Source: Ceratodon purpureus
Lineage: Eukaryota; Streptophyta; Bryopsida; Pseudoditrichales; Ditrichaceae
Assembly (NCBI GenBank): GCA_014871385.1
Contig: CM026426.1
Coordinates: 30,307,452-30,371,451, forward strand
DNA: 64,000 nt
Direction: 5' to 3'
Made by a program: the position numbers and the translations under genes. The number at the start of each line of letters is the position of its first letter. The first letter of the stretch is position 1. Under the pieces are notes generated by a model. That model was not told the DNA's origin. It searched no databases and worked only from the letters and a program-made list of their open reading frames with translations. Shown here piece after piece: positions 14,231 to 59,091 of the stretch.

Positions 14231-14281
14231 CGGCCTGCTCATGTCAGCAAACTTTTTGCCAGCATTAAGACCGAGGAAATA

Positions 14282-31769: not shown

Positions 31770-31798
31770 CAGGGTTTTCTATGCCGTCGGGTCGTGAC
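31770..31798 (+). repeat. left terminal inverted repeat of element B
   Basis: Starts CAGGGTTTTCTATGCCGTCG. It matches the complement of 59063-59091 at 26 of 29 positions and is preceded by the 8-bp duplication. Confidence 0.93.
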
Positions 31799-31799
31799 T

Positions 31800-32430
31800 T
31801 TTCCGTCGCGACGTCCGAATGGGTCGTGACGGGGGTCCTCCGACGTCACAATAGGGGTCAGCGTAGGGTCCTTTAGGTCCTGCGAGTAGCGTGGGTAAAA
31901 GAGTTACTCGGCCCCGTTACGTGGCGTCCTACTTGGAATTGCGTTGGCCCCGGACGGTGACGTGGATGTCCGGAGGAGTTCCGACGGCGGAGTCGGGCGG
32001 ACAGAGACGGGCAACCGATTTAGGGTTCAGGGGCGGACGTGTTTAGGCCTGGCGGACGATTGAGGAGGAACACGACCGTTGAATGCCGGGGAAGTCCGCG
32101 AGTGGGCCGGACTGGTAGGCGGACATAGCTCGGACGGGCTTGTAGGCGGGCATAATGCGTATCCGGGTGGGCGGACTTGATGCCGATCGTATTGCGGACG
32201 GAGGTTGTCGGACCGGGCGGACGCGATGTGGACGAACACATACAGGGTGGTCCGCGATGCAGTGGGGTGTTGGGAACATGGCTCGGACGGGCCTGTAGGC
32301 GGGATAATGCGTATCCGGGTGGGCGGACTTCATGCCGATCGTATTGCGGACGGAGGCTTTCGGACCGGGCGGACGCGTTGTGAACAAACACGTACAGGGT
32401 GGTCCGCGATGCTGTGATTGGGAACATATT
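31800..32430. repeat. left subterminal GTCCG/CGGAC array of B, with a 153-bp duplication
   Basis: GC-rich sequence dense in CGGAC, GTCCG and GGGCGG words. Within it, a unit starting GCTCGGACGGGC at 32128 is repeated at 32281 (period 153 bp) with few differences. Arg/Pro-rich open frames on both strands here are composition artefacts. Likely role: transposase binding sites (inference from known hAT subterminal repeats). Confidence 0.7.
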
Positions 32431-33169
32431 GTCTTCAATTTTCACACAGCTCAACTGCTTCACGAGCAAATATGAAATTCGAACCATCCGACACTACTGA
32501 AGTGACACACTGACCAACTACTTCTCAAACCGATATTGAATTCCATCAGATTATATATTGTAAACGAGATGTATCCATTAAAACATGGCTGTCTTGGTAG
32601 AAGTTTAGTCAGTGAAAGAGTATAGCTCAGAAAGTTCCTTATAAAAAACAGGACTTCCGTGATAGTAGCTTAGTTATCAAACGAGTATAGGTCCGAAAAT
32701 TCCTTACAAACAGTCTTTGATCAAAGTTTTTCCGGTTCGGATGCACAGATGGGAGTTTAAAAAAGGTAAAGTGTCTAAGCTACTGTAAGAAAATTCACTG
32801 CGTAGTCACAATGCAATCCATTCCGTCGCTGAGATACAGTCGCAGTCTTCCAAGAAATCGGAGGTGGAAAACACTATTTTGATTTCCGGCGGCATGTAGA
32901 GGTCGACTTGTCCTTGCGCGCATAATTCCACCCTCTAATGTCCGAGTTCAAATGCTTGCGCCTCTTTTCTCCCTCTCCGGTATCCGGCGCACTGCCAATC
33001 CCCACTCGCGCTGTTGTAGCAAAACTCAGATATCAGTTCCGGACCAGCGCAATGGACACTCTAATGCACAGTATTATGTCAAAAACGAATTTCAAAAAAA
33101 AATTGCTTATCAGATGCAAGATACAGACTCATAAGTCGGAAGTTTTTCATATTCGGTTCCGCAACGGAT
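32431..33169. other. AT-rich stretch with possible last exon of the B RING gene
   Basis: Mostly without coding signals. On the minus strand a CTACAACAG acceptor near 33020 precedes a short Lys/Arg-rich frame (about 33019 down to 32890), in phase with the donor GCGAAG|GTACGT near 33214. It may be the final exon of the upstream RING-like gene. Confidence 0.3.
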
Positions 33170-34993
33170 TCAGCAATACCAGAAATCAATGCACATGCGC
33201 GACATTGACGTACCTTCGCACTTGAAAAAGCCAAAGCTGTTCAACCAGTTCTCTGCGAAATGCTCCCCGCATCTTGCGCAGTTCTGACTAAGCGAGGTCC
33301 GCACTGCAGCGCACCACAGGTGGTATGGGCAAGCGCACGACGCAGTCACGATGTCCATCGCCGGAAACCCTTGGTTACAAAGGGAGCAACCTTGCACTGT
33401 AAGGGTAATTGAGTCGATGTTCTGAGTGGGCGCTGCGATTCGAGGACTGGGGGCACGGAACATTGATGTAGACGACCATATCTGAAGCTGGCGGAGATTT
33501 TCTTTCAAGCCCCTCACCTTGTCCCTTGCATCCTGCTTTGCAGAAGACAGGCGTTTCTCAACCTCGATGGCCACCGCGAGATCCCTCGCCGACGTTTCAG
33601 TTAAATCCTCCTTCATACGTTGCACTTCCTCCCCAGCCTCCAAGATTCTCTGTTCTTCGCCGTGGATTTCGTCCTCGAAGAACCTCAGGAATGTTTCATT
33701 AGCAGAGCCTTCGACGACGGACTTCATCGCCCCTCACTTCTGCATTTTCGCCTCGGAGGAGTCCATAGTCTCCTCAATGCACCTCAGCTTGATCTGAAGC
33801 TTGTACCTGTCCATATGCGTGAGCGGTGGCTTGGCCGTCTGCCTCAGAAGCGCAGCCCGTTCGTGTGCAACACTATGGGCTGCCACGGCCGTCTCGAAGT
33901 CCTTCTCAGCGTCCGCAATCTCGGCTTCCAGGCCCTTGTAGAGAATTTCGACGTAGGTGGCATTCCGGTCAGGGGTGCGATACAGGACTGTGAGTTCGTC
34001 TCCGCTCTCAATTTTCTTACCCCTCCAGCGATCCTCCGCATACTTTGCCTAGTTCATTGGGTAGCGATGGAAAATCTCCATAACGACCGCTCTCGCGAAG
34101 CTCTCCGGGAGGAACAAACCCGCAGGAAGCTCGGGAATTTGAGAGATTGCTGGGTACAGCTCCAACACCCTCGCCTTGACCTCTCCTGAACTCGCTCCGT
34201 CGACGAGATATCCCTTCCCAGGAACCCTCTCTCCGAATATGGACACGATGCAATTGGTTCCGTCCTTTGTCATTTCGTGCGGGACGGGCCAAGTCAGCGC
34301 CTCCCGCAGCTCTTTGGTCTTGCCCATCCCCCACATCTGATCCCGCTTCCAGTGATGATCAATCTCAGCAACATTCTCTCACTGAATGCTGCCCGTGCCG
34401 GACCGCATCCCCGGATTGTCCTCCCATTCCGGAGGGTACATCGTCTGTAAAGGCGGCCAGGAGGTGAGGAGCAAGTGTCGCAATCGTCCATTCTCCGTCC
34501 ACTCTTTCTGAATTGCCTCGAATTCCTTCTCGTATTGAAGTCGCCCCGCTAATGCAAGTATAGCGATCATGTACATATCCTCCGTTTTTTGGAGCGCACC
34601 CACGAGTAATGCCTTTCGCTCCTGAGTTAATGACTCGGACCAGCCCTGGATTGGATCATCTTTGGCACCACCTTCACTCACAGCGCCAGTGGCCTTCCCA
34701 AGCCGTGTTACCTCCTCTAGTAGTCGCAGGTTCTCTATCTCCAATTCCACCACCTTGGCATTGTTTGCTTCTTTCTCCGCCTCTGCCTTCGCACGTATCA
34801 AGTTGTCGCTCGTCGTAGCGACTTCCCGGAGCTCGTTTAGTTCTTCCTGTGTTTTCATTGCCAAGGCTATTGCGTCCGAAGCCTTATTCTTATGATCTTC
34901 CATTTTGGACTCCAATGACAGGATGATCTCTCCTTGCTTCGATGTGTTCTTCTTCTCCTCCTCCAGTTGGCGAGACAGTCTCCGACATTCGTC
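33170..34993 (-). pseudogene. B cargo gene, 3' part: coiled coil and RING-like finger
   Basis: This is the downstream portion of the gene whose 5' part is at 46108-47753; element A separates them. One frame runs through with TGA (34379-34381), TAG (34049-34051) and TGA (33734-33736). It starts with a long coiled coil (CRRLSRQLEEEKKNTSKQGE and on), then a mixed domain, a second coiled coil (about 33730-33500), and a RING-like finger at about 33395-33250. The finger reads CSLC, then S-C-A-C-x2-H-x2-C, then C-A-R-C, followed by ENWLNSFGF. A GTACGT donor near 33214 suggests one more exon. Stops and the insertion show it is dead. The cross-brace cysteine pattern suggests zinc binding and possibly ubiquitin-ligase activity (inference). 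Confidence 0.75.
34986..34993. repeat. left 8-bp target site duplication of element A
   Basis: CATTCGTC. The right copy at 46108-46115 is CATTTGTC. The single difference is C to T within a CG, as expected from deamination. Confidence 0.85.
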
Positions 34994-35021
34994 CAGAGTT
35001 GTCATAATGGACGGACGGGCC
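34994..35021 (+). repeat. left terminal inverted repeat of element A
   Basis: CAGAGTTGTCATAATGGAC followed by GGACGGGCC. It pairs with the complement of 46080-46107 at 23 of 28 positions. Confidence 0.88.
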
Positions 35022-35147
35022 AAAAAATTGTCGTGTAGTCACGTGACGAACGTGACGGACGGTTATCGGACGGACGGTTATCGGACGGGCTCCCGACCGC
35101 GAGCAAAATTACTGTCCTCACAGTTTACTACTGTTTACCATGGGTGG

Positions 35148-35468
35148 CGCCCGTCGTCGTGTCCGCGCGCGTCTTTGCGCCTGTTCGCGCCGGTCATATG
35201 TGGTTGTTCGCGCCCGTCGTCAGTCGCGCGCGCGCGCGGTGAGCGCGCCCGATTACCCTTGCCCGATCAGGATCGCCCGCGCCCGTCGCGCGCTTGCTGT
35301 GATCGCGTCCGTCGTCTGTCTCGCGCGCGCACAGTGATCGCGCCCGATTACCCTCGCCCGATCACAGTCGCTCGCGCCCGTATCTTAGGAATAACGTGCT
35401 CGCGCCCGTAGCAGCCTGCGCGCGCCCAACCTGCTCGCGCCCACACTGTCGGCCCCGTGAGTATAAAT
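35148..35468 (+). promoter_or_regulatory. GCGCCCG array with downstream TATA box (promoter of 35590 gene)
   Basis: About 300 bp packed with CGCGCCCG-type words, mostly in one orientation, ends at about 35455. Immediately after comes GTGAGTATAAATTGCC with TATAAAT at 35462-35468. The first ATG of the small gene is 122 bases further on. The CGGACGG words at 35050-35090, just inside the terminal repeat, are a second motif type. Confidence 0.65.
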
Positions 35469-35513
35469 TGCCACCCTCCTCCACTGATTTCGCACCCCCT
35501 CACTTTGTGCATT

Positions 35514-35545
35514 TTGCCTTCAACAGCCCAAGGGTAGCTGATTGC
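35514..35545 (+). repeat. shared 5' leader module, copy 1
   Basis: A 32-bp segment, TTGCCTTCAACAGCCC then AAGGGTAGCTGATTGC. It matches 36511-36542 at 30 of 32 positions. Both copies lie about 50 bp after a TATA box. Confidence 0.8.
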
Positions 35546-35589
35546 TTAGTGCTACGGTGGGTTTCTCAACATTCGCTGTACCGTCCAAC

Positions 35590-35994
35590 ATGAATTCCAA
35601 CGCCTGCAATTGCCAACAAATCAAGTCCATTATGAGTTTAACGAATGGTGCCACTCCACCGGGCACTGCACAGCGAACGGACACAGTTATTTGGTCAAAG
35701 CTGGAGCGACTCCGTCAACTGATTGAGTTCTTCGAGGATTGGATCTCTCGCCGTGACAAATTGGTGGCCTACGCAGAGAATGGACGCCCTCTGCCTCCAA
35801 CCACTGAACAGCAGTTGGCAACTCAAGCGACTGTCGAAGAACTTGACTGTGAGATTGGCGATCTCATCAAAGAACTGAAGAAGGAGATGGCAATACTTTG
35901 TGTCCCCAATATTGTCTCTAGTGCTCAAACGAACCATTTCGAGACGCTCTTGAAAGACCTAGAGGACCGGTACCTAGAGTGCATGGCACTGTAA
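35590..35994 (+). CDS. small helical protein of element A
   Basis: ATG 35590 (MNSNACNCQQIKSIMS) to TAA 35992-35994, 134 codons, intact. The middle is amphipathic and probably coiled coil (WSKLERLRQLIEFFEDW, EIGDLIKELKKEM), and the end is LLKDLEDRYLECMAL. No family is recognised. It has its own promoter module upstream, and AATAAATAAAG near 36027 may serve as a poly-A signal. The codon-level integrity contrasts with the decayed genes of B. Its role in the element is unknown. Confidence 0.65.
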   Translation: MNSNACNCQQIKSIMSLTNGATPPGTAQRTDTVIWSKLERLRQLIEFFEDWISRRDKLVAYAENGRPLPPTTEQQLATQATVEELDCEIGDLIKELKKEMAILCVPNIVSSAQTNHFETLLKDLEDRYLECMAL

Positions 35995-36103
35995 TCGACA
36001 TTACAATGAAGTGATACATTTTCAAAATAAATAAAGTATTTTTTTTTAACCCTGAATTTGCAAGTTTTCTTTGGTTAATCTGATTTTTAACAGTGTTCTA
36101 GGT

Positions 36104-36465
36104 TGTGGTGGCGCCCGTCCTGGTCCAGTGCTCGCGCCCGTCCATTCAGCGTTGGCGCCCGACGGCCGCGCCTGTGCATTTCGGTTTGCCCGAATAATAT
36201 CCGCGCGCCCGCGTCGACGTCCGCGCGCGCGCCCCTTCGGTACCCGGACGACGCCCGCGCGCGCCCGACGAAGACCGGGTCGGTACCCGCTCGCGCCCGT
36301 CATATACCCGCCATTGAACCGCTCGCGCCCGTTGATATCCGCGCGGGCGCGGACGGATACACGGCCGAAACCCCGCCGTCGGTGCCCGCGCGCGCGCGTC
36401 AGGTTTCCGCTCGCGCTCGTAGCAGGTTGTTCGCGCCCGTTCCCTGGCGCCCGTGACTATAAAAG
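36104..36465 (+). promoter_or_regulatory. GCGCCCG array with TATA box (promoter of GWE/coiled-coil gene)
   Basis: About 350 bp of CGCGCCCG/GCTCGCGCCCG words in one main orientation, then CCGTGACTATAAAAGGGCG with TATAAAAG at 36458-36465. The leader that follows shares the 32-bp module with the previous gene. Arg/Ala/Pro frames in this array are artefacts. Confidence 0.65.
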
Positions 36466-36510
36466 GGCGATTTCCCACCTCATTTTGCACTCCCCCCCCC
36501 TTTGAGCACC

Positions 36511-36542
36511 TTGCCTTCAACAGCCCCCGGGTAGCTGATTGC
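36511..36542 (+). repeat. shared 5' leader module, copy 2
   Basis: TTGCCTTCAACAGCCC then CCGGGTAGCTGATTGC, 30 of 32 identical to 35514-35545. This points to duplication of a promoter plus leader unit inside element A. Confidence 0.8.
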
Positions 36543-36740
36543 GTGGTACTCAGTTGGGTCCCAGCACTCTGACACGTGTCCTTGTTTTTGTTCTCCAGAA
36601 CTCTATGGTGTCTGTGTATTACATTTGAGAATTTTGTAAATGTTTATAATTTGTAAATGTGATTGAGGTTCTGGGGTAGTCGTAGGCTTTTAATTTTGCA
36701 CCTTCGGAAGACTTCGAAGAACGATCTACCTCGAGCAGAC

Positions 36741-38003
36741 ATGGAACGGCAACAACCAGCACTCACGGCGGCAGAGCAGAGGAAAAAGCAAAAGGATGCG
36801 GGACGGGCCAGGCATGGAAACCTCCAACATAAGAGGGTCCACGTCTTATTGAATCCAGCAAAGCTGGCATTCAGAGGGTGGGAAGCTGCATCGCAACCGT
36901 GGACTCTAGCAACGTGTGAACAATTCATTGAATGGTGCCACATTGGGAAGTTATTCCCGTTGCACCGTCATAATAACAATCGTCAATCAAACAAGGCGAA
37001 CATGAAATATTGCAAGAACCGTCAGTTCGGGAGGCGGTGTTTGGAGGTGTGGCAGGTCCTATACAACCAGGCGATGAACGAGAGGAATGAGGTTCTGCTC
37101 TTTATTTGTAGAATGGTATATGCCGAGGTAGTGCTTCATAGGCAGGTGGATTGGAGGACCATACGGTTGACTCCTAGCGTCCAACGGCGTTCACATGAGA
37201 TGGCGATACCTACAGGGGTCCTAAGATTTCCAGGTGTGGACTGGGCATACTTGGATGATCCTGAGGATCAAGCGCCTGTTGAATGGAGTGACTCAGGGGA
37301 GGATAATGATTCTGATGGTACGGTAGACCGTCCCCTTCAGTCACAGACAAGAGCAGCGACTAGTGCTAGAATCACACGGTTAAAAAAGAAGGATCCTGTG
37401 CTAGCTGCCTGTTTGTCGACGAGGAATCGTGCACCGCCTGCAAATCATACTGGACCGGGTATTCCTCATCAGGTTCCTCCAGTAATCGTCGGGGGCCCGA
37501 GCAATGTTGATGTTGCTCCTCCTATATTAGTTCCACAGATTGCGGGCCCCAGCAATGTCGATGTAGCTCCTCATGTACTGAATCCACAGATTGCGGGCCC
37601 GAGCAATGTAATGGAAGATGATGACACTGGGTTTGCAGATGAGTTGGAGGCTACAATAGCCACCGCTGATGCCCAGGGCCCGGAAGTCGATGCATTGCAG
37701 AAGGAGCTGGAAGGAAAAAATGCATTAATTTCTGAGATGGAGAAGACTATCCAGAACTTGTACGAAGAAGCTGATAGGATGAATGAGATTATACGGAAGC
37801 AGAATGAAGAGATTTCGCAACTTAGATCTGCGAAGACTCCGACTTACGTACCCGAGGCAAGCCAAGCTCCAATCCCTGGTAGCCCTGGAATGAACGAGGA
37901 AGACGTTAATGCCATCATTGAATCGGCCACGCACGGTCTCCTGGAAGATACCCCGGTCCGAGTTCCCCGTAAGCCAATCATTCCATTCGCGTCATCAAGT
38001 TAA
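36741..38003 (+). CDS. GWE/VDW-domain coiled-coil protein of element A
   Basis: ATG 36741 starts MERQQPALTAAEQRKKQKD. About residues 35-145 form a domain shared with the B gene at 46108-47753: GWEAASQPWTLATCEQF, a short K-x-N-x-K-Y stretch, RR-x-L...W, then YAEVVLHRQVDW-x-T (B: GWEEVPEPWDAATAMHF ... YAEHVLKKKVDWSTL). Next is an acidic segment, then three imperfect repeats of GPSNVDVAPPIL (from about 37495), then a coiled coil (KELEGKNALISEMEKTIQNL). The frame ends at TAA 38001-38003. The next frame starts at once in the same register, and in B the two parts lie in a single frame. The two may therefore be one protein with a nonsense change, or two products linked by readthrough. Function unknown. 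Confidence 0.7.
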   Translation: MERQQPALTAAEQRKKQKDAGRARHGNLQHKRVHVLLNPAKLAFRGWEAASQPWTLATCEQFIEWCHIGKLFPLHRHNNNRQSNKANMKYCKNRQFGRRCLEVWQVLYNQAMNERNEVLLFICRMVYAEVVLHRQVDWRTIRLTPSVQRRSHEMAIPTGVLRFPGVDWAYLDDPEDQAPVEWSDSGEDNDSDGTVDRPLQSQTRAATSARITRLKKKDPVLAACLSTRNRAPPANHTGPGIPHQVPPVIVGGPSNVDVAPPILVPQIAGPSNVDVAPHVLNPQIAGPSNVMEDDDTGFADELEATIATADAQGPEVDALQKELEGKNALISEMEKTIQNLYEEADRMNEIIRKQNEEISQLRSAKTPTYVPEASQAPIPGSPGMNEEDVNAIIESATHGLLEDTPVRVPRKPIIPFASSS

Positions 38004-38006
38004 GTG

Positions 38007-39251
38007 ATGCACCCCCCCCAGCGGCAAATCATGTTCGTAGATTCTCAAGAGACGGAGGACTCTTTGGGATTTCAACAGCCATCGGTACCCACAGTCTCCG
38101 AATTGCAAGCTACCAACGGGATGCTCAGAAAGTATCTGATCGAGATGAGCAGACAGTACTACCAATGGAAGATTGCATGCATCATGAACGTCGACCGTTT
38201 CAGACAGATGCGCGATGAGTTCGAGAGGATTGACCGCGGTTACCTCCAGCTTAACTCCAAGAGAGATTTCGGACTTACCTCGTGGGCAGATCCAGATGAA
38301 ATGTTCCCTGACAGCCTACCGATGATTGGTAAAGCAATAGATTGGACGCAGTTGGAGTGGGAGTACAAGACCGCCAATTCGAATGAGAAGATCCCTAAAA
38401 ATACAAAGCCAAGATTGCTCTGGCCCAATCCAGCGAAGTTTGTGTTGGATGGAACCGAGTGTCCAGTTTGTTGCAATCTATTTGGGCCAGAGGGGGGCTG
38501 GCAATTGGGATCCTGTCAATGCATGTATCATCCACAATGCTTGATTTCCCATGCCTTGATACGTCGGAAGTGTGCAGTATGTAAGGCCCCCTTACACAAG
38601 CGTTTTTATGAGCAATTCGGCCTAGTGAATTGGATGCCACCGCATTGGGAGGTAAATAAGGAAAATACTCCTGACTTTCCGGACAAGTGGGGTGAAGACT
38701 TGATTTGGAATTGGCTTATGGGAATGCACCAGTCCTATGTTAAACAAATGAGCGATCAGTGGAGGTGGGACCAGAAACCTGCGGAGATTGTACGGATCTG
38801 CCACGAACTCATCAACGGCGGGACGGAGGAGGAACTCGAGGGAAGGAGGAATTTCTTCTACCAAGTGCTACATGGGCACTGGGATATTCAAACTTGTACA
38901 TTCCAGTACGGCCGCCATCCTCTTGGATTTAAGTGGAATTCCAAAGGGGAGTTGGTTGCGGATCAGATGAAGGAGTTGCACGACATGACTGCAGAGGATT
39001 TGCGGATCGCTGAGGAAGTACAAACCGCGGAATCTGAATGGGATATATTGTTCAAGAATCAAGCCGTGGATTTCCTATGTGCGGAAGTGGCTCTGGATGT
39101 CGTAACAGTGCTCCGTCGGATGCGCAACAACAACTTCATGGAAGCAATGCTTGGAAGAGATGGCATAGCGAAGAGAACCCGTTCTGCCAAGCGGAAACTC
39201 ATCGCCAACGATGGGGCAGAAAGTAGTGCAGCAAGTACCTCTCCTGCTTGA
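38007..39251 (+). CDS. RING-like finger protein of element A
   Basis: ATG 38007 follows TAA 38001-38003 in the same frame. About 414 codons, intact to TGA 39249-39251. The N-terminal third is helical. The finger lies at about residues 150-195: CPVCCNLF, later GSCQCMYHPQC, then KCAVC, followed by KRFYEQFGL. This C-x2-C...C-x-C-x2-H-x2-C...C-x2-C plan with a trailing F-G-hydrophobic unit is shared with 33170-34993 and 15212-17030. After it come a Trp-rich segment (WNWLMGMHQSYVKQM) and a basic C-terminus (KRTRSAKRKLI) that could act as a nuclear signal. The finger may bind zinc and act in ubiquitin or SUMO transfer, but this is inference. Confidence 0.72.
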   Translation: MHPPQRQIMFVDSQETEDSLGFQQPSVPTVSELQATNGMLRKYLIEMSRQYYQWKIACIMNVDRFRQMRDEFERIDRGYLQLNSKRDFGLTSWADPDEMFPDSLPMIGKAIDWTQLEWEYKTANSNEKIPKNTKPRLLWPNPAKFVLDGTECPVCCNLFGPEGGWQLGSCQCMYHPQCLISHALIRRKCAVCKAPLHKRFYEQFGLVNWMPPHWEVNKENTPDFPDKWGEDLIWNWLMGMHQSYVKQMSDQWRWDQKPAEIVRICHELINGGTEEELEGRRNFFYQVLHGHWDIQTCTFQYGRHPLGFKWNSKGELVADQMKELHDMTAEDLRIAEEVQTAESEWDILFKNQAVDFLCAEVALDVVTVLRRMRNNNFMEAMLGRDGIAKRTRSAKRKLIANDGAESSAASTSPA

Positions 39252-39285
39252 CACGATGAAGGTGGATCGAGTTCGCCCGCCGCTC

Positions 39286-39538
39286 TCTGCCCGTGCGCGC
39301 CCGCGCCGGCATTCGCCCGCCGCTCTCCGCCCGCGCCCGCCCGCGCCCGCCTGCTTCGCGATGCAGCGCTCGCGCCTGCATGCGCCCGCCCCCGCCCGTC
39401 TTCCACCGCGCGCGCTATCCGCCACGCGGCCTTCAATGGCGCGCACCCACATGCGCCCGCCCGTTCGCGTCGGAGCGCGCCCGTTCGGTCGCGCCCGTCC
39501 GGAGAGTACTCGCCCGGTCGAGGGCGGCAGTATATAAA
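39286..39538 (+). promoter_or_regulatory. GCGCCCG array with TATA box (promoter of hAT transposase A)
   Basis: GC-rich words (CGCGCCCG, CCCGCCCG) fill about 39286-39525, then GGCAGTATATAAACTGCC with TATATAAA at 39531-39538. The transposase ATG is 244 bases downstream. This is the third promoter of the same design in the element. Confidence 0.65.
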
Positions 39539-39781
39539 CTGCCCCCTTGATTTGACATCCACCTTACCTCCTTGCGAGCTTCATGGCCTGGGTCTCCTTG
39601 AGGGCTCCTTGCTTGAAACTGTTAGCTTGGGGAGACACTTGGTTTGGGTGGGGGGAATGTAAAAATTCTTATTTCCATAAATCAATGTGTCAAGCACTTT
39701 TCAGACACACTAAGTTATTCAGATAATAATCTTTTGGTACTACTGGTCCTATTAGTCCCGATACTTCCCTAATCATTCACT

Positions 39782-42700
39782 ATGGATCCGGATGAAGCGG
39801 TTGAACCGGTTGAAGTGGTTGCTCCGGCTAGAGCCATTCCAAGACTCGGTACGAGAGAGTGGGCACCATGGTTTTCGGTCAAGCTCCAGGAAGGGTCACT
39901 GTCACAAAAGGTAGCCCAATGTGTGTATTGCAGGACCAAGTTTTCGTACGTGAGGCATAGGTGCTTTCAGCATTATGGTTGGGACCAGTCCAATCTCTCG
40001 AGGGTTTGCCAAAAGGCACCTACCGTAGTGGAGAGGAAGTTTCAGTTTTGCGCTGGAAAGATTCCCGGCCCTTTGACACAGGAGGAGGTGGATGGTATCA
40101 GGCCAACGTTCACCGCGTCAGTTCAACGTGGAACATCCAGTGCTTCCACACACGGCACTCTGTACGGTGGATCCGAACCCTCGTATAATGATACCGAAGA
40201 GGACCGAAATGTCTCCAGTGTTGCACCTAGTAGGGCCGGTTCGAATACCACTAGGAGCTTGCGGCAACAGGACATGAGTGAAGCACTCCAGATCGCCAAG
40301 CGGAAGGAGCTGGACATGTTGTGGTCATCCTTCTTTTACGAAGCCAACGTCGCATTCAACGTGGCCAAGCACCCAGCATTTATTAAGGAGGTGAGCACAA
40401 CCGCGGCTGCCGGATTTAACTACGGTCCTCCTTCCTATGACGCGATGCGAACAACGCACATCAAGGAAAAAAAGAAGTTAATCAAGGCAAAGATTGATGA
40501 ACGTACGAAAACCTCGACCGAGTTATACGGGACTACCATTTGCTCCGATGGTTGGGATAATGTGAATCGCCGACCGTTGATTAATGTCATGCTAGTATGT
40601 CCCGCAGGCGATGTATTTCTTGGGTCTGTTGATACGACTGGCGAGAAGAAGTCAATGGGATATATTGCCGGGGAGATGAAGAAATATATTCGAGAAATTG
40701 GCCCTCAGAATGTTGTCCAGATTTGCACGGACAATGCAGCCAACATGCTTGGCGCCATGGATAATATCCTAGAGGAGTTTCCTCACATGTACAAGCAGGG
40801 CTGTTGTGCCCATATTCTAGATCTTCTTATGGAGGACTGGGGCAAGGAAGTCTTTGTGAAGGATTTGGTCGCCAAGGCTAAACACGTGTGTCATTACATT
40901 CGGAGACATCATGTTCCCATGGCCCTTTTCCGCAAATTTGAACCGAAGTTGTCCTTGGTGGTTCCCGCTGAAACCAGATTCGCTTGTAACTATCTCATGA
41001 TAGCGCGCCTTATAGAGGTTAAATTTGCTTTGGAGCAAGTGGTCATGGCACAGGAGTGGTACGAGTATGTCGACGGTTTATTCAACCAAACCGAGGGGGT
41101 GCGTAATCATGCACGCGCAAGCCTAGTGCGTCAAACAATTCGTGACAATGGGTTCTGGCATCAGTGTGACAACTTCACGCACCTAGTGAAACCAGCCCTA
41201 GTAGCTCTCCGAACCTTCGATGGAAGCCAGCCGGCATTGGGCAAGGCATGGATTACAATGAGCAACCTAAAGGATCACGTGTACAATCTCCGAGGATCCC
41301 CTTGCTTTTTCCCACCTGTCATGGCAACAAGGATGGAGCTGCGGTTCGACCGTAGATGGGACATGATGCATACCGATCTTCATTATGCCGCGGCGCTCTT
41401 GAACCCTTGGGTTAGAACGCATAAGGGCTTACAAGCCATAGGAGAAGCGAAGGCGGCTCTCAATCGGGTGTTTCGTCAGGTGGGTGGCCAAATGGGAATT
41501 CCATTTGGCGATCTTATGAAAGAGATGATCGAGTTCGACGAGGGACGTGGCCCTTACAGCCCCGAAGTGACCATCGATATCAGAGGTTTGAATCTGGAAC
41601 TCCATCAATGGTGGCAGAGGATTGGAGGGGGACCATTGGCAGTCATTGCAAAGCGCATTTTATCTCAGGTCTGCTCCGCCTCATCGTGTGAACGGAATTG
41701 GAGCATGTATTCGTTTGTCCACAACAAGGTACGCAACCGCCTGGGGTTGGAGAAGTCTGAGGCCTTGGTGTACATTTATACGAATAGCAGACTCCTCCGC
41801 GAACGCCCAAAGCCCAACCCCCTCAGATGGTACGAGAACAATGCATGGTCAGAGGAGTCAGATCCGGAGAGAGATCCAAGCCAAGAAGAAGGAGATGACG
41901 ACGATCATTACATACCAGTTGACCACGCAGGCAGTGGGGATGATGATGTCTGGGGACATGATAACGTCGACGTTAACACGAATGGGCAAAACGACGGTAA
42001 TGGCAACGGACGCGGTGACGCTAACCGCAACAATCCGCGTGACCGCATCAACCACGATGATAACGGTGATGAGTACGACTTCAACAATGAACCAGAATAT
42101 AACCAGGGAAACCCGGACATGAACATCTATGGAGACGAATTACCCACGCTCCCGGTATTTGATGAAGCGGCTAATGCAGAAGGAAGAGGCGCTCGTGACG
42201 AAAGAGATGCTATTCCAGTCCAAATCAATCCCAAGAACAATGACGGGGTTGCAGATGATTCATCCAGCGAGGACCATCTTGGCAACGATATCCATGCTGG
42301 CGATGATGATGAGGACAGTGACGAAGGGGGTGATGGAAGTCATGGACGGGCTGTAGATGGACCTCATTGGACCGGCCTCGTTAGTGGGGAGGGCAACTGG
42401 GGAACCGTTCCGGCACAAGGCGACTCAAGCTTGTTTCAAGAGATTCCTCCTGCTCACGAGAGAAGGACCGTGCACGCAATCCCCGCACAGACTGTGGCTC
42501 CATCGCAACCCACTGGTACGGGGGGTATCGAACCAGATACAATCGTGGATGGAGGCCTGGTTCGGAGGCCCACAAGTTCAATGGACGCAAAAATAGCTCG
42601 ACTCCTTAGATCATCAGCAGCGGCGAGGCCTCCACTCAATCGAGCTGGTGGTAGTCGGCGTGCTGCCTCCACCGCCAAGCTAGTCCCCGTGGCGCCAGCT

Positions 42701-43828: not shown

Positions 43829-43901
43829 GTGGGAGAAATCAGATTGGGTGGAGGGGATCTTTTGTTTTTTTTTATTGTGTGTCCAGTTCATTATTCCAAC
43901 T

Positions 43902-46107: not shown

Positions 46108-46115
46108 CATTTGTC
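46108..46115. repeat. right target site duplication of element A
   Basis: CATTTGTC, against CATTCGTC on the left. It lies within the coding frame of the B cargo gene. Confidence 0.85.
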
Positions 46116-47783: not shown

Positions 47784-48029
47784 AGTATCTTGGTTAGATC
47801 CTGATACGATTACTCTTAAATCCTAAACGGACACTTCGCATATGCTGGGTTCAGGGGAAAAAATTAACATTAAGTATATAATGTGACAGAGCACACGAAT
47901 AGGGTCAATTTAGTACTTACAGAATATTCAGGTCGTACAAGGACCCCACGCTCACCCCGCACCCCGCGCGCCCGCACACTCAGAGAGAGGCAAGCGGTCT
48001 GGGCGCAAAAGTTGAGAAGTGTGGAGAAC

Positions 48030-50116: not shown

Positions 50117-52423
50117 GCTACGAGACGATGCGGAAATCAAGAGAGTCAAGTGGGAGTCTCAAATGACAGTCTCAAAAATACGCACCCTGTTCATTCTAAA
50201 ACGAGAGTCTCAAGAATAACCAAAATTACTATACGCATATCGTGGAAGAGCATAGGTAATCTACCCTGTAGACAGTAGACTGCCGTTGTAGAAGAATGAG
50301 TGAATAATGACTGAACAATGCATTTGACATGATATCCGAGAGCAGGGAAAGAGTGACAATGATTAGATCAAGCATGTTAATCATAAGTACTGATGTTTTG
50401 GTGGGAGTGGAGACATGTTAGTGCATGACTTAAAGAAGAACGTCCACTCAAATCCGACATTGCCATCCGTCGTCCGACCTTCGTATCCGCGCTCTCCGCA
50501 TCCCGTCTGCATGAACCCGGGTGCATTTGGATCCGACGAGAGCACGCTCCCGACCTGTCCGACCCACTGACCGCGTAATTCCCAGTGTTGAACGCAGGTT
50601 CCGATGGCTCAATCGCTCCGATTCTCCGATCACAGCGACTGTCACGGACCACGCAGCCAAGAATAAATAAAAATACGAAATTCGTGGAGAAAAGAAAACG
50701 CTATGAATGAAGAAAGATGAATAAGCGTTTAATTTGAAATAAAAATAAGGGAAAGTTATAGAGAAGTTATGAAATAATGTTTAAATAAGTATGATATAGA
50801 AACAAATTGTGAATGATAAAGGAATGAGGTGGGAGTACATAATAGAATACTGAGCGGCTAAAGAATATATTAAGCCCTAAAGTTCTGAGGGTATTTTTCA
50901 TCAAAACTGCCTGAAAACAGCTCCTCTTCAAAGCAAGGTTGATTCTGAAAACTTGGGGGTTTTTTTTTTAACATCTAACCAAAAGATCTTGTAGCTAACT
51001 TCAATAAATTGCATACATACGTACATGCCCAAATTCAAAAAAAGCCCAAATGTGGCAGATTGTACTTTAGGGGTTATAAACGATAAATACAGAGTGATTA
51101 CTAACGGGAGTATTGCAATGATATCAAAATTAAAATTAATTGGTGGCAATGATCAATTAGATGGCATAAGAGCGAAAGTAGACTAAAAAATAATATAGAA
51201 GTCCAACTACAATTCCGATGAGGACAATTAAATTTCCTAAAAAAATATAACGACCGTATAAATTATACTACGATTTAACTAGGTATGACAAAGTTGGTTG
51301 GCGTGTAGGCAAAAGGTTTAACATATGTAGGCAAAAAGTTTTGGATATGAAAGGCGTTTCAATTAAATCTTAACCGCAACTTACCGCAACGTACCGCAAC
51401 TTACCGCAACTTACCGCAACTTACCGCAACATACCGCAACTTATCGCATTGTGAGGTAGCACTACCCCACCGCTGCCCCAGCCCCCCCCCTTTCGTAACA
51501 ATGAGGATAATGGGATTTGGGTTTAGAGAGCACGTATGCACATGTTTCTTATATGCACATGTTTGTTATATGCACATGTTTGTTATATCAACGTAATTAC
51601 TATACTCATGTGTTGGTTGCATAAACAAACATTTAAAAAAATATATAAAAATATTTCTCCAAAGATTAGAGATTTTACAGGAATCTTGGAATGTAAATGC
51701 CGTAATTAGTAAATGATTGTCACACGCTTTAATAACTTGTTATTTGGGCTTTTATAAAACGGATGCCAAAATATTCCAATGTTTTCCTTATTCCATTTGT
51801 TTTTTATAATACAGATTCTCACTCTGTTTGTAAATCACGTACAATTACATCCACATGTGGAATACTATACCAAATGGGACTTCCCACGATGCATGCTCTA
51901 CGAAATAATGATATTTTTATTATTCGGAACAGGATAAAATAGACAAAATTGAGGGACCGCGGAGGGTGCACTCTAATACGCACGGAAGGGAAGTGAATTG
52001 TACGCAAACGGGGACGAAGATTACAATGCAACCCGTCCGACCTGCAGCGGACATCCGGCAACGGGATCGGACGAGTAGCCTCCGAGATCATCCAATCAGT
52101 ATAGGCGGCGGACAGTGAGTCGGACAGTGCCATATCCGGGGTAGCGAAGAGTGCATGTCTGACCCAGAAGTGAGGATGGCGCGAGGAGGGGAGTGCGAGG
52201 AGGGGGAGTGGGAGGGGCAAGACACAGAACACTAAAGGATCCACGGCGGACGAGGTCGGAGAGCCACCAAAAGGGGATATTAATTGTGGGCGGACAAAGG
52301 TCGCACATCTGTCGCGGAGCAGAACGATTCATGCGCGGACGGGTGACGAGGTTGTCGGACACGGCTCGGATAAGTACGGAATGGAGGTCTCCTCATATCG
52401 TAGTATGAAGACTAGGCGAGCGT
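50117..52423. other. non-coding interior of B with several repeats
   Basis: 50440-50640 is a GTCCG array. 50650-51360 and 51490-51950 are AT-rich without genes. 51371-51450 is a 10-bp tandem repeat, consensus TTACCGCAAC, eight units. 51535-51590 has three copies of TATATGCACATGTTTGT. 52035-52380 is another CGGAC/GTCCG array downstream of the hAT gene; its Arg/Pro frames are artefacts. Confidence 0.5.
51371..51450. repeat. 10-bp tandem repeat TTACCGCAAC x8
   Basis: Eight consecutive decamers, five or more with the exact core ACCGCAAC, the last degenerating to TTATCGCATT. It lies within AT-rich DNA of element B. Role unknown. Confidence 0.9.
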
Positions 52424-55400
52424 TCACTCTCGGATCCGAACAGTTGGGTCGTTGGCTTCGTCGCAACGTCGGTCCTCCTCGGATTCATCTGTGCTCATGT
52501 CGTCATCAGACCGCGGACTTCTAGTGCTTAGCCGCAACTCATCGTCTCTGGTGATAACTAGCTTCTTCGTTGGACGGGATCCTTGAGGGTCGCGTATTCC
52601 ATTTTCATCGAGTTCTGGTCTACCTTCGGAGTTGTCAGGTTCGTACAGGGCGAAACGCGATGTAGTCCCCTGGAACCTTTTCTTTCGCTTTACACCTCTT
52701 GTTGTTCGTTGGATAACACTTCCCCTTGCAGGACCACTGGACACTCTTTCCCCAGTCGTGCAACTAGATGCACGTGCCGCAGGGTCCCGGATCGACGTAG
52801 ATGGAACCCCTCTCCGCACGGGCCGGCTGCGTGAAGAAGACGCGGTCAGAACAACGGACTCGCTACCGTTGGTTACAGCAGATCCTACTGCTCGGCGTCT
52901 GCGTCCCTGGCCGGAGGTCTGCTGCGGAAGGATGTGACCCCTACCAACGGGGGTGGAGAGCACGGCAGAAGCTGGCTGTTGCTGGTTTACAGCCATACTT
53001 CCGGACGTACTAGCCAGGCTTCGAGTTATGGGACGGCGTATTTCCTCAGACGGGGTCTGAACTTCCTGGTCGGCCATCCTCCTTCTCGAATCTTCCTCCG
53101 TCATTTCATCTCTCCGGCGATTGATAGGTGGTAAATCCTCCTGAAAAACTGTTCGAATCTCTCCCTCCATGTTCGCCAGGTTCTCGTCGAAATCCCTCTG
53201 GCCGAATGACAAAGAATCAATCCAAGGCTGCGAGAAGTCCGTGTCGACAATAGGTATCCTCCAGGCCGGACTACCATCTCCTCTGTCCGACTGTATTTCT
53301 GCTTCGTTGATCGGACTCTGAGCTCGACGCTCACCTCCTGCATACGCCTGCCGTCCAACGCGACTATCCTGGCGGAGGATATCTTCAACCGCATCTCGGC
53401 GATGTCTTGCGTCAAACATATTGTGGAAGAGCTTGGCAATCCGGACATCGCCACCGTCGTCACCGTCAGATCCTGCGTCGTCCGATCCGGATTCCTCAAA
53501 GTCGCTCTCCGGCGGATCGTCGTCCGCAAGTCCGACACCCCCCATGCCCAATCCGCCCTGTCCGACACCATCCATGCGGGCATCGTCCGCCACATCGTTC
53601 GCTACATGGTCTCCTCCCCGTCCGACGTCTTCCTCCTCGTCGTCCTCGTCCGGATCCTCGCCATCGAGGTCATCGTCGGAATGAACCTCCTCTAAGCCAT
53701 ACCACTGTGCCGCACGCGGGGCCCGGCGGTGACGAACGAGTCTACTGTTCGTGTAGATATACACGAGGTCCTCCGCTTGTACATGTTTCAATCTATTGCG
53801 CACCTTGCTGTGCACGTAAGAGTACATGCTCCAGTTGCGCTCACACGCAGACACGGAGCAAACCCGTCCAAGTATACGTCTAGCTATTGTTTGGAGAGCC
53901 CGGGCTCCACCTCCCATTGCGTCCCACCATTCGTGGATAGCAGTGCCGTGCGCCTAGGGATCGGTTGAATCAGCAAATGCCTCCCGATTCTCGAGGAAAT
54001 CCTGATACTAGACAAGGATCTGGACGTAATTCTCCTCGTTAGAGGATAACTTGCGAAAAACCCGGTTTAAAATGATCCTCGACTCCTCGTGGTTATGAAG
54101 TGGCGCCCATCCACGTAGGGTCGGGTTGAGCATCGCACCTGCCCAATGAAGATCTGTCAACATCATAGCCCATCTGTGGTCGAATGCGACCATGGCGTCT
54201 GCTGCCAGGTCCGCGTTCAATCTAAACGGATGGGAGGAAAAACTGCGGACGTGGTTCTTCAAATCGTACATCGCCCTCCAAGCTAGGCCCATTGCAGGTG
54301 CCTTCCCATCAAAAAGGCGTAATGCCTTCACCACTGGGATGACCATGTATAAGAAGTTATGGCACGTGTTCCAGAAACCGTCCGCACGCACGTACTTCCG
54401 AAATAGGCGGACCCTCTTCCCTGCTGAGCTGTTCACATCAGGATAGGTTGCTAAAATACCTGCAAACGCCGGATCGATGACCAGTCTCTCAAATGCATTC
54501 CGAAGTTCCACAAGACGCTCGATCATAATGAAATTCGTCGCGAACCGCGTCTCAACGGGCAAACGGATGGTCAGATTGGGACACATCCTGCGAAACAAAG
54601 CCATTGATGAATGATGATTTCTAACCCATAGACAAATAAGTCTCGCCTTTCTGACTACGTGCTTCACCCAATCCTCCTTCCCCCAATCTTCCAGTAACAG
54701 ATCCAAGCAGTGTGCGGCACACCCTTGAACATAAATGTGAGGATATCGTGTCTCGAGCATCCGACTGGATCCAAGCATGTTCGGAGCATTGTCAGTGCAA
54801 ACTTGGACCACATGTTGCGGTCCGACCCGTTCCACAAACGGACGGATCTGAGAAGCGATGTAATCGCTATCTTTGTAGTGTCCCGTCGTGTCTATGGTTC
54901 CAAGGAAAACGTCGCCCCCGGTCCCACTCTGGATAACATTCAGAAGAGGACGACTCTGGACGTTGTCCCAACCGTCTGCACATATTGTAACACCGTATTT
55001 CTCTGTGGAATTGCCCGTGAGTTCCCTTACTTGTCTCACCATTTCCGCCTTTCTCACGCTCAACAGTTTTGTGCGAATAGCATTCATCGATGGCGGCAGG
55101 TATGCCGGGAAGCGGGCTCGCACTGTTTCCCGAACGGCGTTAATGAAGGCAGGATGCTTAACAACGTTGAATGGGATATTGGCTTCGTAGAATGCCGTTG
55201 CCCACACTTTATCTAATCGAAGCTTCGTGGAAGCATTGAATCCTTGCACAAGATTCACTTGACGCATTTCCCTGGGTGGAGAACCCTGGGGTGCCATATC
55301 GGGCTCCTGCATAGCTGGCCCATCATTCGCGCGCGCCCCCTCGTTATCGGGAGCTTGAGGTATTACCGGATCTGGGACCTCGTCACCTCCCAAGCCAATG

Positions 55401-55669
55401 TCATGAACATCATCGGGCTCTCTTCTAGGAACTTCACCTCCGCAGTCTACGAACAACCTCCTCACCCGCGCACTCAGCAACCTGCAAATTTGTATACCGT
55501 AGTTACCTGGACCACCTAAAGGTCTGTATCCAAAGTGGGCGAACATTCTATCGCGACGGTTCACAATAGTCACATTACAAATTCTACACCTAACTTGTCT
55601 CTGAGGCCTCGCACCCACCACGCCCAAGTCCTGCCACCACTGATCCTAGGCCTCTACTCTTCGCGGCAT
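52424..55669 (-). pseudogene. hAT transposase of element B, three in-frame TAG codons
   Basis: ATG at 55667-55669 (MPRRVEA), then TAG at 55646-55648, 54008-54010 and 53954-53956. Otherwise one frame runs to the stop at 52424. A BED-type finger (RCRICNVTI, MFAHFG) is near the start. The RNase H-like core has CADGWDNVQSRPLLN and CTDNAPNMLG, then QGCAAHCLDLLLEDWGK. The C-terminal dimerisation domain has ACERNWSMYSYVHSKVRN and YIYTNSRL, closely matching transposase A. The acidic and basic tail of about 400 residues is also shared in style. Around the stops the text reads smoothly (VQILV-stop-YQDFLENREAFADSTDP-stop-AHGTAIHEWW) and no frameshift is seen. Dead unless TAG is read through. It would have mobilised element B. 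Confidence 0.88.
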
Positions 55670-57242: not shown

Positions 57243-57523
57243 TTACGAAGTAAATAGTGTCCGGTTAAATACGGAGAATCTCCGTTATCGACGCAATGCA
57301 TTAGCAATTAGATAAGAGGTTGGAAGATGCATGTTTGCTTAGAAACTGCACTGGATGGATATTTCCGAAACAGAAAGGAGATATCAAACTACGGGGGACG
57401 TTCGGAATAGCTCCATCATTATAAAACATAAATATACTCTGATCATTGGAAGATTAGCATAATAATAAACGGGGAATAAATATTATAGTAAGGCCAAAAA
57501 TTCTCGTCCCATATACAAAATAG
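57243..57523. other. short AT-rich spacer in B
   Basis: No gene. It lies between the 3' ends of two convergent ORFs. Confidence 0.4.
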
Positions 57524-58447
57524 TCAGAGAAAGAGAAGGCCAGAGTTAAGCATTCCAAGATTGGTAGTGAGCATAATCATTAACAGCTGCAACACTCGTC
57601 TATTAAAATCAAGCGTGTTCCCAAATCCCTGCTGAAAACCCTCCTGTTTGTTCACAATATCCGACATCTCACCGAGATAAGGCATCGTTCTCCAGCAATA
57701 CCGTTGGAACTCGTAGTCCGTCATTTTGCGAGTCTCGTCACTTTCATGCTCGGAGTGGTCTTCCTCCTCGTCCACCTTACGCTTCTTAGCATCACCGGAG
57801 GATCCGCGTGTCGCATTAGGGGATTCTGCATCCGCCCTTATGGATCTACGAGATTCCAGCGCAGTGTCTCCCGCTTCCATCTGTAATGAAACTTGGCCAA
57901 CTCCTCTGATTCTATCCCGGCGGAGTGGCGTTGTCCTCGTCCGACTTCCAGCCCTCCACCATCGGGCATGCGCGCATACACATTCCTCACGCACTCGATC
58001 GCTCGATGGACCTCCAGTCCGTGTCCACACGATCTTCCGACCCTCCTCGTCCCCCCGGACCCCACTTTGTACCACCCGTTCCGCTGGAATGCGCACGCGC
58101 ATCGGATGCATGATGCCTGTGCAATTCGCCACGGATTGGAACTGCAACACTGCGACTGGGTCCCAGTTCGTCGGCCACAGACAGGTCTCCATGAGGGGCA
58201 CGGCGGAGAAGTCGGGACACAAGAGGCCATACTCTTCCTGAAACGCGTCGACGGATTCGAGCCAAGTCCGTAGACATTCCTTGGATCTCGGCACATCTTT
58301 CGCAAGTTGAAACTCCCCTCCCCTTCTCCTCGCTGCATCAACCCATACTGGCAAATCCGCGGATTCGTAGTCCGATCGGAGAAACTCGCTTAGGCACCGG
58401 CTACTCCCTTCCATACAAGATGGAGGGCACTTGCGCGAGCAAGCCAT
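57524..58447 (-). CDS. uncharacterised nuclear-type protein of B (307 codons)
   Basis: ATG at 58445-58447 (MACSRKCPPSCMEGSSRCL) to TAA 57524-57526 (minus strand), uninterrupted. It has a Cys-containing start and a mixed domain with Trp-rich stretches (CLRTWLESVDAFQEEYGLLC, CLWPTNWDPVAVLQF). A basic/acidic segment with AKKRKVDEEED, a good monopartite nuclear localisation signal, follows. The C-terminal region is helical (YEFQRYCWRTMPYLGEM, LLMIMLTTNLGML). It is the outermost gene on the right side of element B, and I do not recognise a family. One gene of B without in-frame stops among several with them could mean selection or chance. Confidence 0.55.
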   Translation of the reverse strand: MACSRKCPPSCMEGSSRCLSEFLRSDYESADLPVWVDAARRRGGEFQLAKDVPRSKECLRTWLESVDAFQEEYGLLCPDFSAVPLMETCLWPTNWDPVAVLQFQSVANCTGIMHPMRVRIPAERVVQSGVRGDEEGRKIVWTRTGGPSSDRVREECVCAHARWWRAGSRTRTTPLRRDRIRGVGQVSLQMEAGDTALESRRSIRADAESPNATRGSSGDAKKRKVDEEEDHSEHESDETRKMTDYEFQRYCWRTMPYLGEMSDIVNKQEGFQQGFGNTLDFNRRVLQLLMIMLTTNLGMLNSGLLFL

Positions 58448-59062
58448 CGGGCACGGCTCGAAATGAGTTGAGGTTGGTGCAGGTCAGCGCGCAGAGAATA
58501 GACAACGCTACACCACCCAGGAAGAACGTTTTCCGCAATGGTGCTGCATTACCAACGGCGCTCAACACATAGAAGAAGAGAGGCGATGATCATCATAGTT
58601 CCAAATGGGCATTTAATTTTCCCTCTCAGTTGCAATAAAACTTATAATCCACCTAGATTTTGGATTATGAAATCAATCCCAAGTAGAATGTGGCGGACTT
58701 CATCGGAGCCGACAGCAATCGGATGGCGGATAAGCGCCTTGAGGGATGCCGGAATGCGGACGAGATCACGAAGACCCGTTGGACGACGGGGCATCGATCC
58801 GGCGGAAAGCGGATGTCGGATCGGACATCGGACTCGGTATCGGATCGTACAGGGTGGCGCGGACGAAGCGGACTGATACTGGGGCCCACCAGTATCAGAC
58901 CACCTTTATCGCAGACGTGGACATCGGCTGTCCGAGGTGTCGCCGGGGCGGAAATGTAAAAGTGAAAATGTTGTCGTAAATACTTGGGCCGTCGCGATAA
59001 AGACCGAATGGGACGTCCGGTTGTGACTGTGTCATGACGTCCCGACATTATGACGCGAGAGG
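58448..59062. repeat. right subterminal GTCCG/CGGAC array of B
   Basis: From about 58680 to 58940 words such as CGGAC, GCGGA and GGATG recur every 10-15 bp. Nearer the end are GTCATAATG words also seen in the terminal repeat of element A. 58448-58680 holds nothing recognised. Confidence 0.6.
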
Positions 59063-59091
59063 GTCACGTCGCGACGGAATAGAAAACCCTG
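59063..59091 (-). repeat. right terminal inverted repeat of element B
   Basis: On the minus strand CAGGGTTTTCTATTCCGTCG, 26 of 29 matches with 31770-31798. It is followed by the target duplication. Confidence 0.93.

Follow-up and report, generated by a model that had tools for sequence, protein, structure and literature searches.

hAT transposons are textbook one-gene elements, normally a few kilobases in size. Autonomous plant elements that pair a transposase with an accessory protein are known, namely MuDR (mudrA/B), En/Spm (TnpA/TnpD), and VANDAL with its anti-silencing protein VANC; to our knowledge, none of these accessory proteins is a RING-coiled-coil protein or a kinase. Kyakuja-Dileera-Zisupton (KDZ) elements are large, generate 8-bp target duplications, and carry accessory genes. 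Among mosses, one study is reported to have obtained no hAT sequence from Physcomitrella in its homology searches (PMC6027215).

This study analyzed a 64,000-nucleotide stretch of the genome of the moss Ceratodon purpureus (the window), in which an outer hAT element of 27,322 bp occupies positions 31770-59091. The window was scanned for every exact inverted 10-mer pair with a flanking direct repeat of 5-10 bp, and the terminal inverted repeats (TIRs) of the outer element were the sole one of the three resulting pairs with an 8-bp duplication. The left TIR (31770-31798, forward strand) and the right TIR (59063-59091, reverse strand) agree at 26/29 positions, and the flanking duplications at 31762-31769 and 59092-59099 are identical (TTGGCAGC). 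The CAGGG-type termini and the duplication proposed in an earlier note on this DNA were thus borne out, as was the in-frame restoration of the interrupted gene: taking out 27,330 bp, a length divisible by 3, yielded a 405-aa open frame spanning the insertion junction. The two parts of the interrupted gene, upstream at 59100-59968 and downstream at 30675-31769, lie on the reverse strand, and the frame is restored when the flanks are joined. Its assignment to CACTA held for the gene adjoining the element, which was identified by DUF4216 and Transposase_21 (the latter in the downstream part), but the joined 405 aa fell below every Pfam cut-off; what we take to be a CACTA motif at the junction, together with the continuous frame, is the basis of the CACTA reading there. 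A search for CACTA termini gave no result, and neither did tRNA and Rfam scans.

The genes of the outer element lie on the reverse strand. The transposase gene (52424-55669) encodes DUF659 and Dimer_Tnp_hAT and contains two in-frame stops; both fall in the region it has in common with P0034, a 1065-aa protein with an open frame and 97% identity. A second gene, B, is split by the nested element into an N-terminal part (46108-47822) with the conserved domain and coiled coil and a continuation (34244-34993), each with one in-frame stop. We rejected introns as an explanation for the interruptions of both genes: each interruption consists of a single in-frame stop, and P0034, a close relative, has an open frame. 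Alignment to a full copy, the C8 copy, placed the junction of an approximately 5-kb deletion at 34243-34244, corresponding to 2475-7461 of the C8 copy; the deletion removed the kinase gene and the C-terminal part of B with its RING finger, which is missing from the window copy. The remnant of a 417-aa ORF of the full copies (33170-34243) has a RING-like C-terminus that weakly matches nested B (E 4e-5). The counterparts of a 218-aa ORF (49580-50158; open in 5/6 full copies) and a 291-aa ORF (57524-58483; open in 3/6) are unsure as coding sequences, and Pfam scans of the 417- and 218-aa ORFs of the C8 copy and of the 291-aa ORF's counterpart in the window gave no match. The copy in the window has thus decayed from the full element, with its kinase gene deleted and in-frame stops in its transposase gene. 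It would be an old derivative that lost the kinase by deletion and gained stops, and a second-family element would then have struck its B gene.

That nested element spans 34994-46107 (11,114 bp; TIR match 23/28) and is flanked by CATTCGTC at 34986-34993 and CATTTGTC at 46108-46115, which agree at 7/8 bases. Its ends were set by aligning the window to another outer-type copy; a boundary at 34998-46103 was rejected, as no duplication exists there. The uninterrupted target of the insertion was present in all six other outer copies. On the forward strand, the nested element carries gene B (36741-39251), which encodes the N-domain, coiled coil, and RING finger, contains one in-frame stop, and is 95-96% identical to P0064 (open, 850 aa); an open 1148-aa hAT transposase gene with a predicted Hermes-like fold (39782-43228); and a protein kinase gene split across two frames in this copy (43902-45468). 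A 150-aa ORF at 35542-35994 had no Pfam match and no significant blastp match to other element proteins. A second-family relative at C6:31.86 Mb measures 13,853 bp, has the duplication GCCGAGAT (8/8), and shows the gene order B-transposase-kinase. The nested element is itself a hAT, from a distantly related branch, and carries the same trio of genes as the outer family. The passenger named in the earlier note is really present, with its own ends and duplication, but it belongs to the same class as the outer element. The open transposase is that of the nested element and not of the outer one, and several of the ORFs likely to be counted for the outer element are likewise those of the nested one.

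We used the first and last 300 bp of the outer element as queries against the Ceratodon purpureus genome, where both recur. The best 40 of 262 first-look candidates for the left end matched at 99-100% (the window's own at 100%, the others at 99%), and among the best 40 of 249 candidates for the right end, the window's own matched at 100% and the others at 95-96%. Within the ends listed, 25 of the 40 left ends were paired with a right end and 15 were unpaired, and 16 of the 25 pairs measured 23.0-24.6 kb. Six full copies were fetched, each of about 23.4 kb (23.35-23.45 kb) and differing pairwise by 0.18-1.29%; genes for the transposase, B, and the kinase occur on one strand between these ends in all six, several of them broken, and the transposase and kinase frames are each open in four. 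The native element thus measures about 23.4 kb and not the 16.2 kb given previously for the element without its passenger, as the window copy lacks approximately 5 kb including the kinase gene. In the seven fetched outer-type copies with both ends, the duplications agree at 8/8 bases in six and 7/8 in one; the TIRs match at 25/29 in six of the seven, the seventh having been measured at an offset end. Fifteen left ends gave 14 different 8-mers as the duplication. One short outer-type copy of 2,366 bp retains just both end regions after internal deletion. Other copies with the same termini, for which the earlier note suggested a search, therefore exist (at least 40 left and at least 40 right ends scored); in each of the six full copies aligned, these termini enclose all three genes, and none of the seven outer-type copies fetched carried the transposase alone. 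The two copies that differ by 0.18% suggest recent movement or duplication, and the outer and second-family elements have, judging by their copies, multiplied in the moss genome.

The transposases exhibit the features of the hAT superfamily: a C-terminal dimerization domain, 8-bp duplications, short TIRs, and a predicted Hermes-type fold. Dimer_Tnp_hAT exceeded the Pfam cut-off in the outer, nested, and C8-copy transposases and in that of a third element, L001; in the C8 copy, DUF659 and Pkinase also exceeded theirs. A model of the nested transposase (mean pLDDT 59) found Hermes chains as its best PDB matches in Foldseek (E 6.8e-14; TM 0.62 by target). Residues D256, D317, and E637, presumably the catalytic DDE residues, are invariant in all 40 rows of the transposase alignment. 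The outer and nested transposases are 40% identical; in the tree, the outer and L001 transposases share one branch and the nested transposase falls in another, all apart from nine flowering-plant DUF659 proteins. Among the six copies, the transposase had a pN/pS of 0.50 (one-sided Fisher p 0.005) and the kinase one of 0.43 (p 0.017).

B comprises a conserved N-terminal domain, a coiled coil, and a RING finger. The zf-RING_2 match scored 36.9 bits in L001 B against a Pfam cut-off of 27.3, and the RING finger was below this cut-off in the C8 copy (24.2 bits) and in nested B (13.6 bits). With E up to 0.1 allowed, 9 of 13 B members matched. The B profile matched chains of RNF24 and RNF38, and B similarity divides like the transposase tree, with outer and L001 B set against nested B. 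The predicted structure is poor (mean pLDDT 47.7), and the pN/pS of 0.87 among young copies does not differ from neutral (p 0.30). B is a RING-type protein and a candidate ubiquitin ligase, with a putative role in the element.

The kinase is recognizable as such in sequence: Pkinase was found in 23 of the 24 rows of kinase alignment A3, the outer kinase scored 38.7 bits against a cut-off of 31.7, and the catalytic motifs are retained: the lysine K247, the catalytic loop H-N-D 361-363, D-W-G 387-389 (DxG), and A-P-E 422-424 are at least 90% conserved. Among the best 82 of 1383 first-look candidates for relatives of the nested kinase, a figure that counts kinases alone, 72 contained no stop. At one (L050) of four loci fetched from the 82 listed, a kinase and a right end occur, but the 7.6 kb upstream hold no transposase, and kinases outside complete elements may be among the 1383 candidates. 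The kinase, like B, has a presumed role in the element.

In L001, an open B frame of 875 aa lies beside the transposase on one strand, and no kinase was seen within the 6.3-kb contig. This contig is binned as cyanobacterial. Each of two families that are only distantly related thus holds the three genes between one pair of ends. On the basis of this trio in the full copies and the second family and the transposase-B pair in L001, the elements look like a hAT class with a conserved three-gene kit, and not like a hAT with chance cargo; the earlier description of a multi-gene hAT with cargo is thus right about extra genes inside the same ends, and the term cargo is what we would replace. We consider it very probable that Ceratodon purpureus harbors a class of large, multi-gene, cut-and-paste hATs, each with a transposase, B, and a kinase.

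Plant DNA transposons can carry pieces of host genes, and the elements might be hATs of the usual kind into which unrelated genes of the host (kinase and RING) were captured as passive passengers in the Pack-type manner. The little recent constraint on B and the accompanying ORFs without a Pfam match would suit such transduplication, but the same two gene families lie beside transposases just 40% identical, with B also in L001, and the outer and nested kinases share 26% identity in one segment and 39% in a second, which points to an old association of kinase and element. Moreover, none of the 12 B and none of the 29 kinase database matches carried an organism name, whereas plant-named proteins were among the transposase matches, and most of the best kinase candidates are free of stops. 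We therefore regard passive capture as unlikely.

Far less probable still is a composite, in which two or more small hATs lie together between the ends of one element. The nested element is real, with its own ends and duplication, yet six other copies lack it at that site, measure a uniform 23.4 kb, and carry the trio on one strand, and a single target duplication bounds the outer insertion; the uniform copies led us to reject this explanation. The large size, several genes, and signaling-type proteins would also befit what is left of a larger entity, virus-like or self-replicating, with a hAT transposase for integration, as Teratorn does with piggyBac. Pfam scans of selected ORFs revealed no capsid, polymerase, or packaging family, however, an IMG/VR search with the transposase, B, and kinase confirmed no relatives, and a scan of viral contigs with the TIR gave no result; such an origin appears very improbable.

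Under the conserved-kit reading, the transposase would cut at the terminal repeats and insert at 8-bp staggered sites, by analogy with Hermes. B and the kinase would be the element's own accessory factors and are probably of use to it, because they accompany the transposase in both of two branches that separated deep in the tree. In the role we prefer, they would act either on a host factor (silencing, repair, or cell cycle), through ubiquitin tagging and phosphorylation, or on the transposase itself. Such action would let an element of 14-23 kb move and amplify. We tentatively propose that, in a moss lineage of giant hATs, an anciently acquired ubiquitin-ligase-like protein and a kinase became a fixed, self-encoded module that disarms or reprograms the host and permits mass spread. 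If this is true, host silencing, repair, or the cell cycle would be disarmed or reprogrammed in a haploid plant, and elements of 14-23 kb could spread en masse, sex chromosome included. Since Ceratodon is a haploid laboratory moss, the copies, their expression, and their effects are directly testable, and the way in which a transposon might turn ubiquitin and phosphorylation on its host would be open to study there. The elements also add large near-identical sequence to a sex chromosome, probably V, and their many open kinase genes risk being misread as an expanded host gene family.

Among the described systems, Starships are likewise giant eukaryotic transposons with conserved accessory genes, but we rejected a Starship identity: no DUF3435 tyrosine-recombinase captain was found among the ORFs scanned with Pfam, and the element has an 8-bp duplication and TIRs instead. 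ToxhAT of wheat-pathogenic fungi resembles the moss elements in that it is a class II element of 14 kb that carries other genes and was formerly classed as a hAT. It is reported to have a 2-bp TA target duplication, to be likely a Tc1/mariner element, and to be a non-autonomous passenger of a Starship, and ToxTA was proposed as its name (PMC12506042); we therefore rejected it as a precedent for a cargo-bearing hAT. MuDR, En/Spm, and VANDAL belong to superfamilies other than hAT, and KDZ elements differ in that the moss transposase is a hAT by Pfam and predicted fold. A literature search found no publication on such elements, and hAT elements with a transposase-RING protein-kinase kit appear, within the literature searched, to be a newly seen kind. 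They resemble the hAT superfamily (Ac, Hermes, Tol2, and the DUF659-type plant hATs) in their DUF659 and dimerization domains, Hermes-like fold, 8-bp duplications, short TIRs beginning CAGGG or CATGG, and small internal-deletion derivative; they differ in that their transposases branch separately from the nine DUF659 proteins of flowering plants, in their size of 14-23 kb, and in their two further conserved genes, encoding the RING protein B and the kinase.

The earlier note had placed a giant hAT transposon at 31770..59091 (27,322 bp), and these boundaries proved to be real. This outer element is flanked on both sides by the target site duplication (TSD) TTGGCAGC, its terminal inverted repeats (TIRs) match at 26/29 positions, and among the three flanked pairs of inverted 10-mers found in a scan of the window, only the outer pair carries an 8-bp duplication. 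Joining the flanks produced a 405-aa open frame adjoining the interrupted CACTA gene, which was identified next to the junction by Transposase_21 and DUF4216 (Pfam). A Pfam scan of the joined 405 aa alone returned nothing above the cut-off, so the CACTA motif at the junction is putative. An A+T-rich stretch adjoining the CACTA gene holds a 228-bp tandem repeat (27293-27925, 2.8 copies), and GC-rich tandem repeats with a unit based on GGCGCGAGCGCC occupy 63324-63551.

A genome search located the window at C6:30307452-30371451 of the 362.5-Mb assembly; the locus tag KC19_VG232100 of the Ceratodon purpureus protein P0052 suggests that this contig probably represents the V sex chromosome. With the left 300 bases of the outer element, 40 of 262 candidate places were scored (window 100% identity, the other 39 at 99%), and 17 of these 40 left ends lie on C6. 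The right 300 bases gave 249 candidates, of which 40 were scored, with 95-96% identity to the window, the window itself aside. The listed ends formed at least 25 paired copies, and 15 listed left ends had no partner among the listed right ends. Sixteen of the 25 pairs measured 23.0-24.6 kb, and the others measured 22.3 kb, 2,366 bp, 27.3 kb (the window), and 32-60 kb (six pairs); the longest of these six may join the ends of two different elements.

We fetched seven copies, namely six of approximately 23.4 kb and the short one of 2,366 bp. The TSD matched at 8/8 positions in six of the seven and at 7/8 in the reference copy on C8 (the C8 copy); the TIRs matched at 25/29 in six, and for the seventh (copy A) the end used in the measurement was offset. 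Fourteen different 8-mers were present at 15 left ends among the retrieved loci. Two outer-type loci, L010 (C8:7117291) and L016 (C6:51368801), have an identical 20 bases of left flank; this common flank, together with the 7/8 TSD of the C8 copy, could reflect a repeat serving as the target at both sites, a segmental duplication, or an exchange by recombination among the copies. The six long copies showed pairwise mismatches of 0.18-1.29%; the C13 and C4 copies (L031-L033 and L034-L036) were only 0.18% apart, suggesting that one of them moved or was duplicated very recently. The short copy (L040, C5:11170295-11172660) is an internal-deletion derivative retaining both ends and a TSD of 8/8, which suggests mobilization in trans.

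The C8 copy carries all its genes on the minus strand: a 1095-aa transposase (Pfam DUF659, 128 bits; Dimer_Tnp_hAT, 32.1 bits), the 1036-aa protein B (RING finger, 24.2 bits, under the cut-off of 27.3), a 654-aa kinase (Pkinase, 38.7 bits), and further ORFs of 417, 291, and 218 aa. Pfam scans returned no match for the 417- and 218-aa ORFs or for the 291-aa ORF, scanned as its window counterpart at 57524-58483. Over six copies, the frame was open in 4/6 for the transposase, 4/6 for the kinase, and 6/6 for the 417-aa ORF; B was fully open in one copy, lacked stops but had a length indivisible by three in another three, and was broken in the remaining two. Polymorphism was counted across the six copies relative to the C8 copy, with a one-sided Fisher test of pN/pS. 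The nonsynonymous and synonymous counts were 41 and 25 for the transposase (pN/pS 0.50, p 0.005), 19 and 13 for the kinase (0.43, p 0.017), and 73 and 25 for B (0.87, p 0.30); the ratios for the 417- and 291-aa ORFs were 1.25 and 0.57 (p 0.08 for the latter). These values support recent constraint on the transposase and kinase, whereas for B and the smaller ORFs pN/pS among the six copies gave no such support.

The window copy is 96-97% identical to the C8 copy. The earlier note gave 16.2 kb for the element without its passenger, which is the length of a copy shortened by deletion, because C8-copy positions 2475-7461 (the kinase gene and B C-terminus), approximately 13545-14273, and 21923-22982 are missing from the window copy. 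The transposase of this copy has two in-frame stops within the part common to P0034, an open 1065-aa relative with 97% identity.

Aligning the window with the C8 copy revealed that the matches overlap by 8 bp where the nested element is inserted, within the outer B gene, shifting the ends of this second-family hAT to 34994 and 46107. The nested element has the duplication CATTCGTC/CATTTGTC and TIRs matching at 23/28; its uninterrupted target was seen in 6/6 other copies, and its right end was confirmed at four other places (L046, L048, L049, and L050), where the sequence diverges past identical terminal bases. On the plus strand, it carries B (36741-39251, one in-frame stop), an open 1148-aa transposase (39782-43228), and a kinase split over two frames (43902-45468). 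Identity to the outer counterparts was 40% for the transposase, 28% over 144 aa (N-domain) and 31% over 267 aa (RING half) for B, and 26% and 39% in two segments for the kinase.

A kinase query of the genome gave 1383 first-look candidates; 72 of the best 82 scored are stop-free, a top-scoring set that leans towards intact copies. Four of these 82 loci were fetched, and two provided relatives of the nested element. The relative at C6:31.86 Mb (13,853 bp, ends CATGGTTGTCATAATGG, duplication GCCGAGAT 8/8) has the same gene order, with B (best row residues 85-850), a transposase with a deletion, and an open kinase. The relative at C5:13.03 Mb has B in two pieces and an open transposase and kinase, the fetched DNA stopping short of the left end. 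The fetched DNA of L047 held the kinase and part of the transposase, and that of L050 held the kinase and right end, with no transposase within the 7.6 kb fetched upstream. Two second-family copies (L051+L049 and L052+L048) have a repeat-rich stretch of approximately 3-5 kb between B and the transposase that is missing from the nested copy.

Database matches comprised 63 proteins for the transposase, 12 for B, and 29 for the kinase. Of the transposases, ten were named as plant proteins, one from Ceratodon and nine from monocots, and another bore the name of a bacterial MAG; all the B and kinase clusters came from contigs below 7.2 kb without an organism name. A scan of a prokaryote collection returned three loci, and L002 and L003 matched only the transposase. 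L001, a 6.3-kb contig in a cyanobacterial MAG bin but eukaryotic by content, holds the 3' part of a hAT transposase and an open B frame of 875 aa (RING, 36.9 bits) approximately 0.7 kb farther along; no kinase was found on it. Such genes in bacteria-named records (L001 and P0045, "Bacilli bacterium") are probably eukaryotic contamination. Identity of the L001 B protein was 54% with outer B (169 aa compared) and 27-30% with nested B; for the L001 transposase core, it was 63% with the outer transposase and 45-47% with the nested one.

A transposase tree was made from 59 rows, with the outer, nested, and L001 proteins added to 56 of the 63 from the database. Built by a fast method whose program warned of long branches, it set nine flowering-plant proteins apart (support 100) from the remaining 50. 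The outer and L001 transposases shared a branch of 14 rows (support 83; inner 12, support 100), and the nested transposase and Ceratodon P0052 another of 23 rows (support 100). B therefore occurs alongside transposases from both branches, and the B and transposase families divide alike, so far as three linked pairs can tell. A third hAT transposase is represented at 63907-63999 on the minus strand by its C-terminal tail (31 residues 97% identical to P0052), its remainder being past the window end.

The transposase is a hAT by domain, TSD, TIR, and fold (best match Hermes, E 6.8e-14). B is a RING-coiled-coil protein with profile matches to RNF24 and RNF38, and the kinase retains the Lys, H-N-D, D-W-G, and A-P-E positions. 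Since both are long associated with the transposase, they may aid transposition or act on the host, with host manipulation being our preferred guess. Known hATs are normally small, single-gene elements, as the earlier note also holds. The literature searched, which did not extend to the Ceratodon genome paper, described no such elements. In one report, no hAT was detected in Physcomitrella (PMC6027215). An apparent exception, ToxhAT, has a TA duplication and is assigned, as a likely placing, to Tc1/mariner by the authors who studied it (PMC12506042). We rate the moss elements as a lineage of hATs that carry a conserved kit of three genes.
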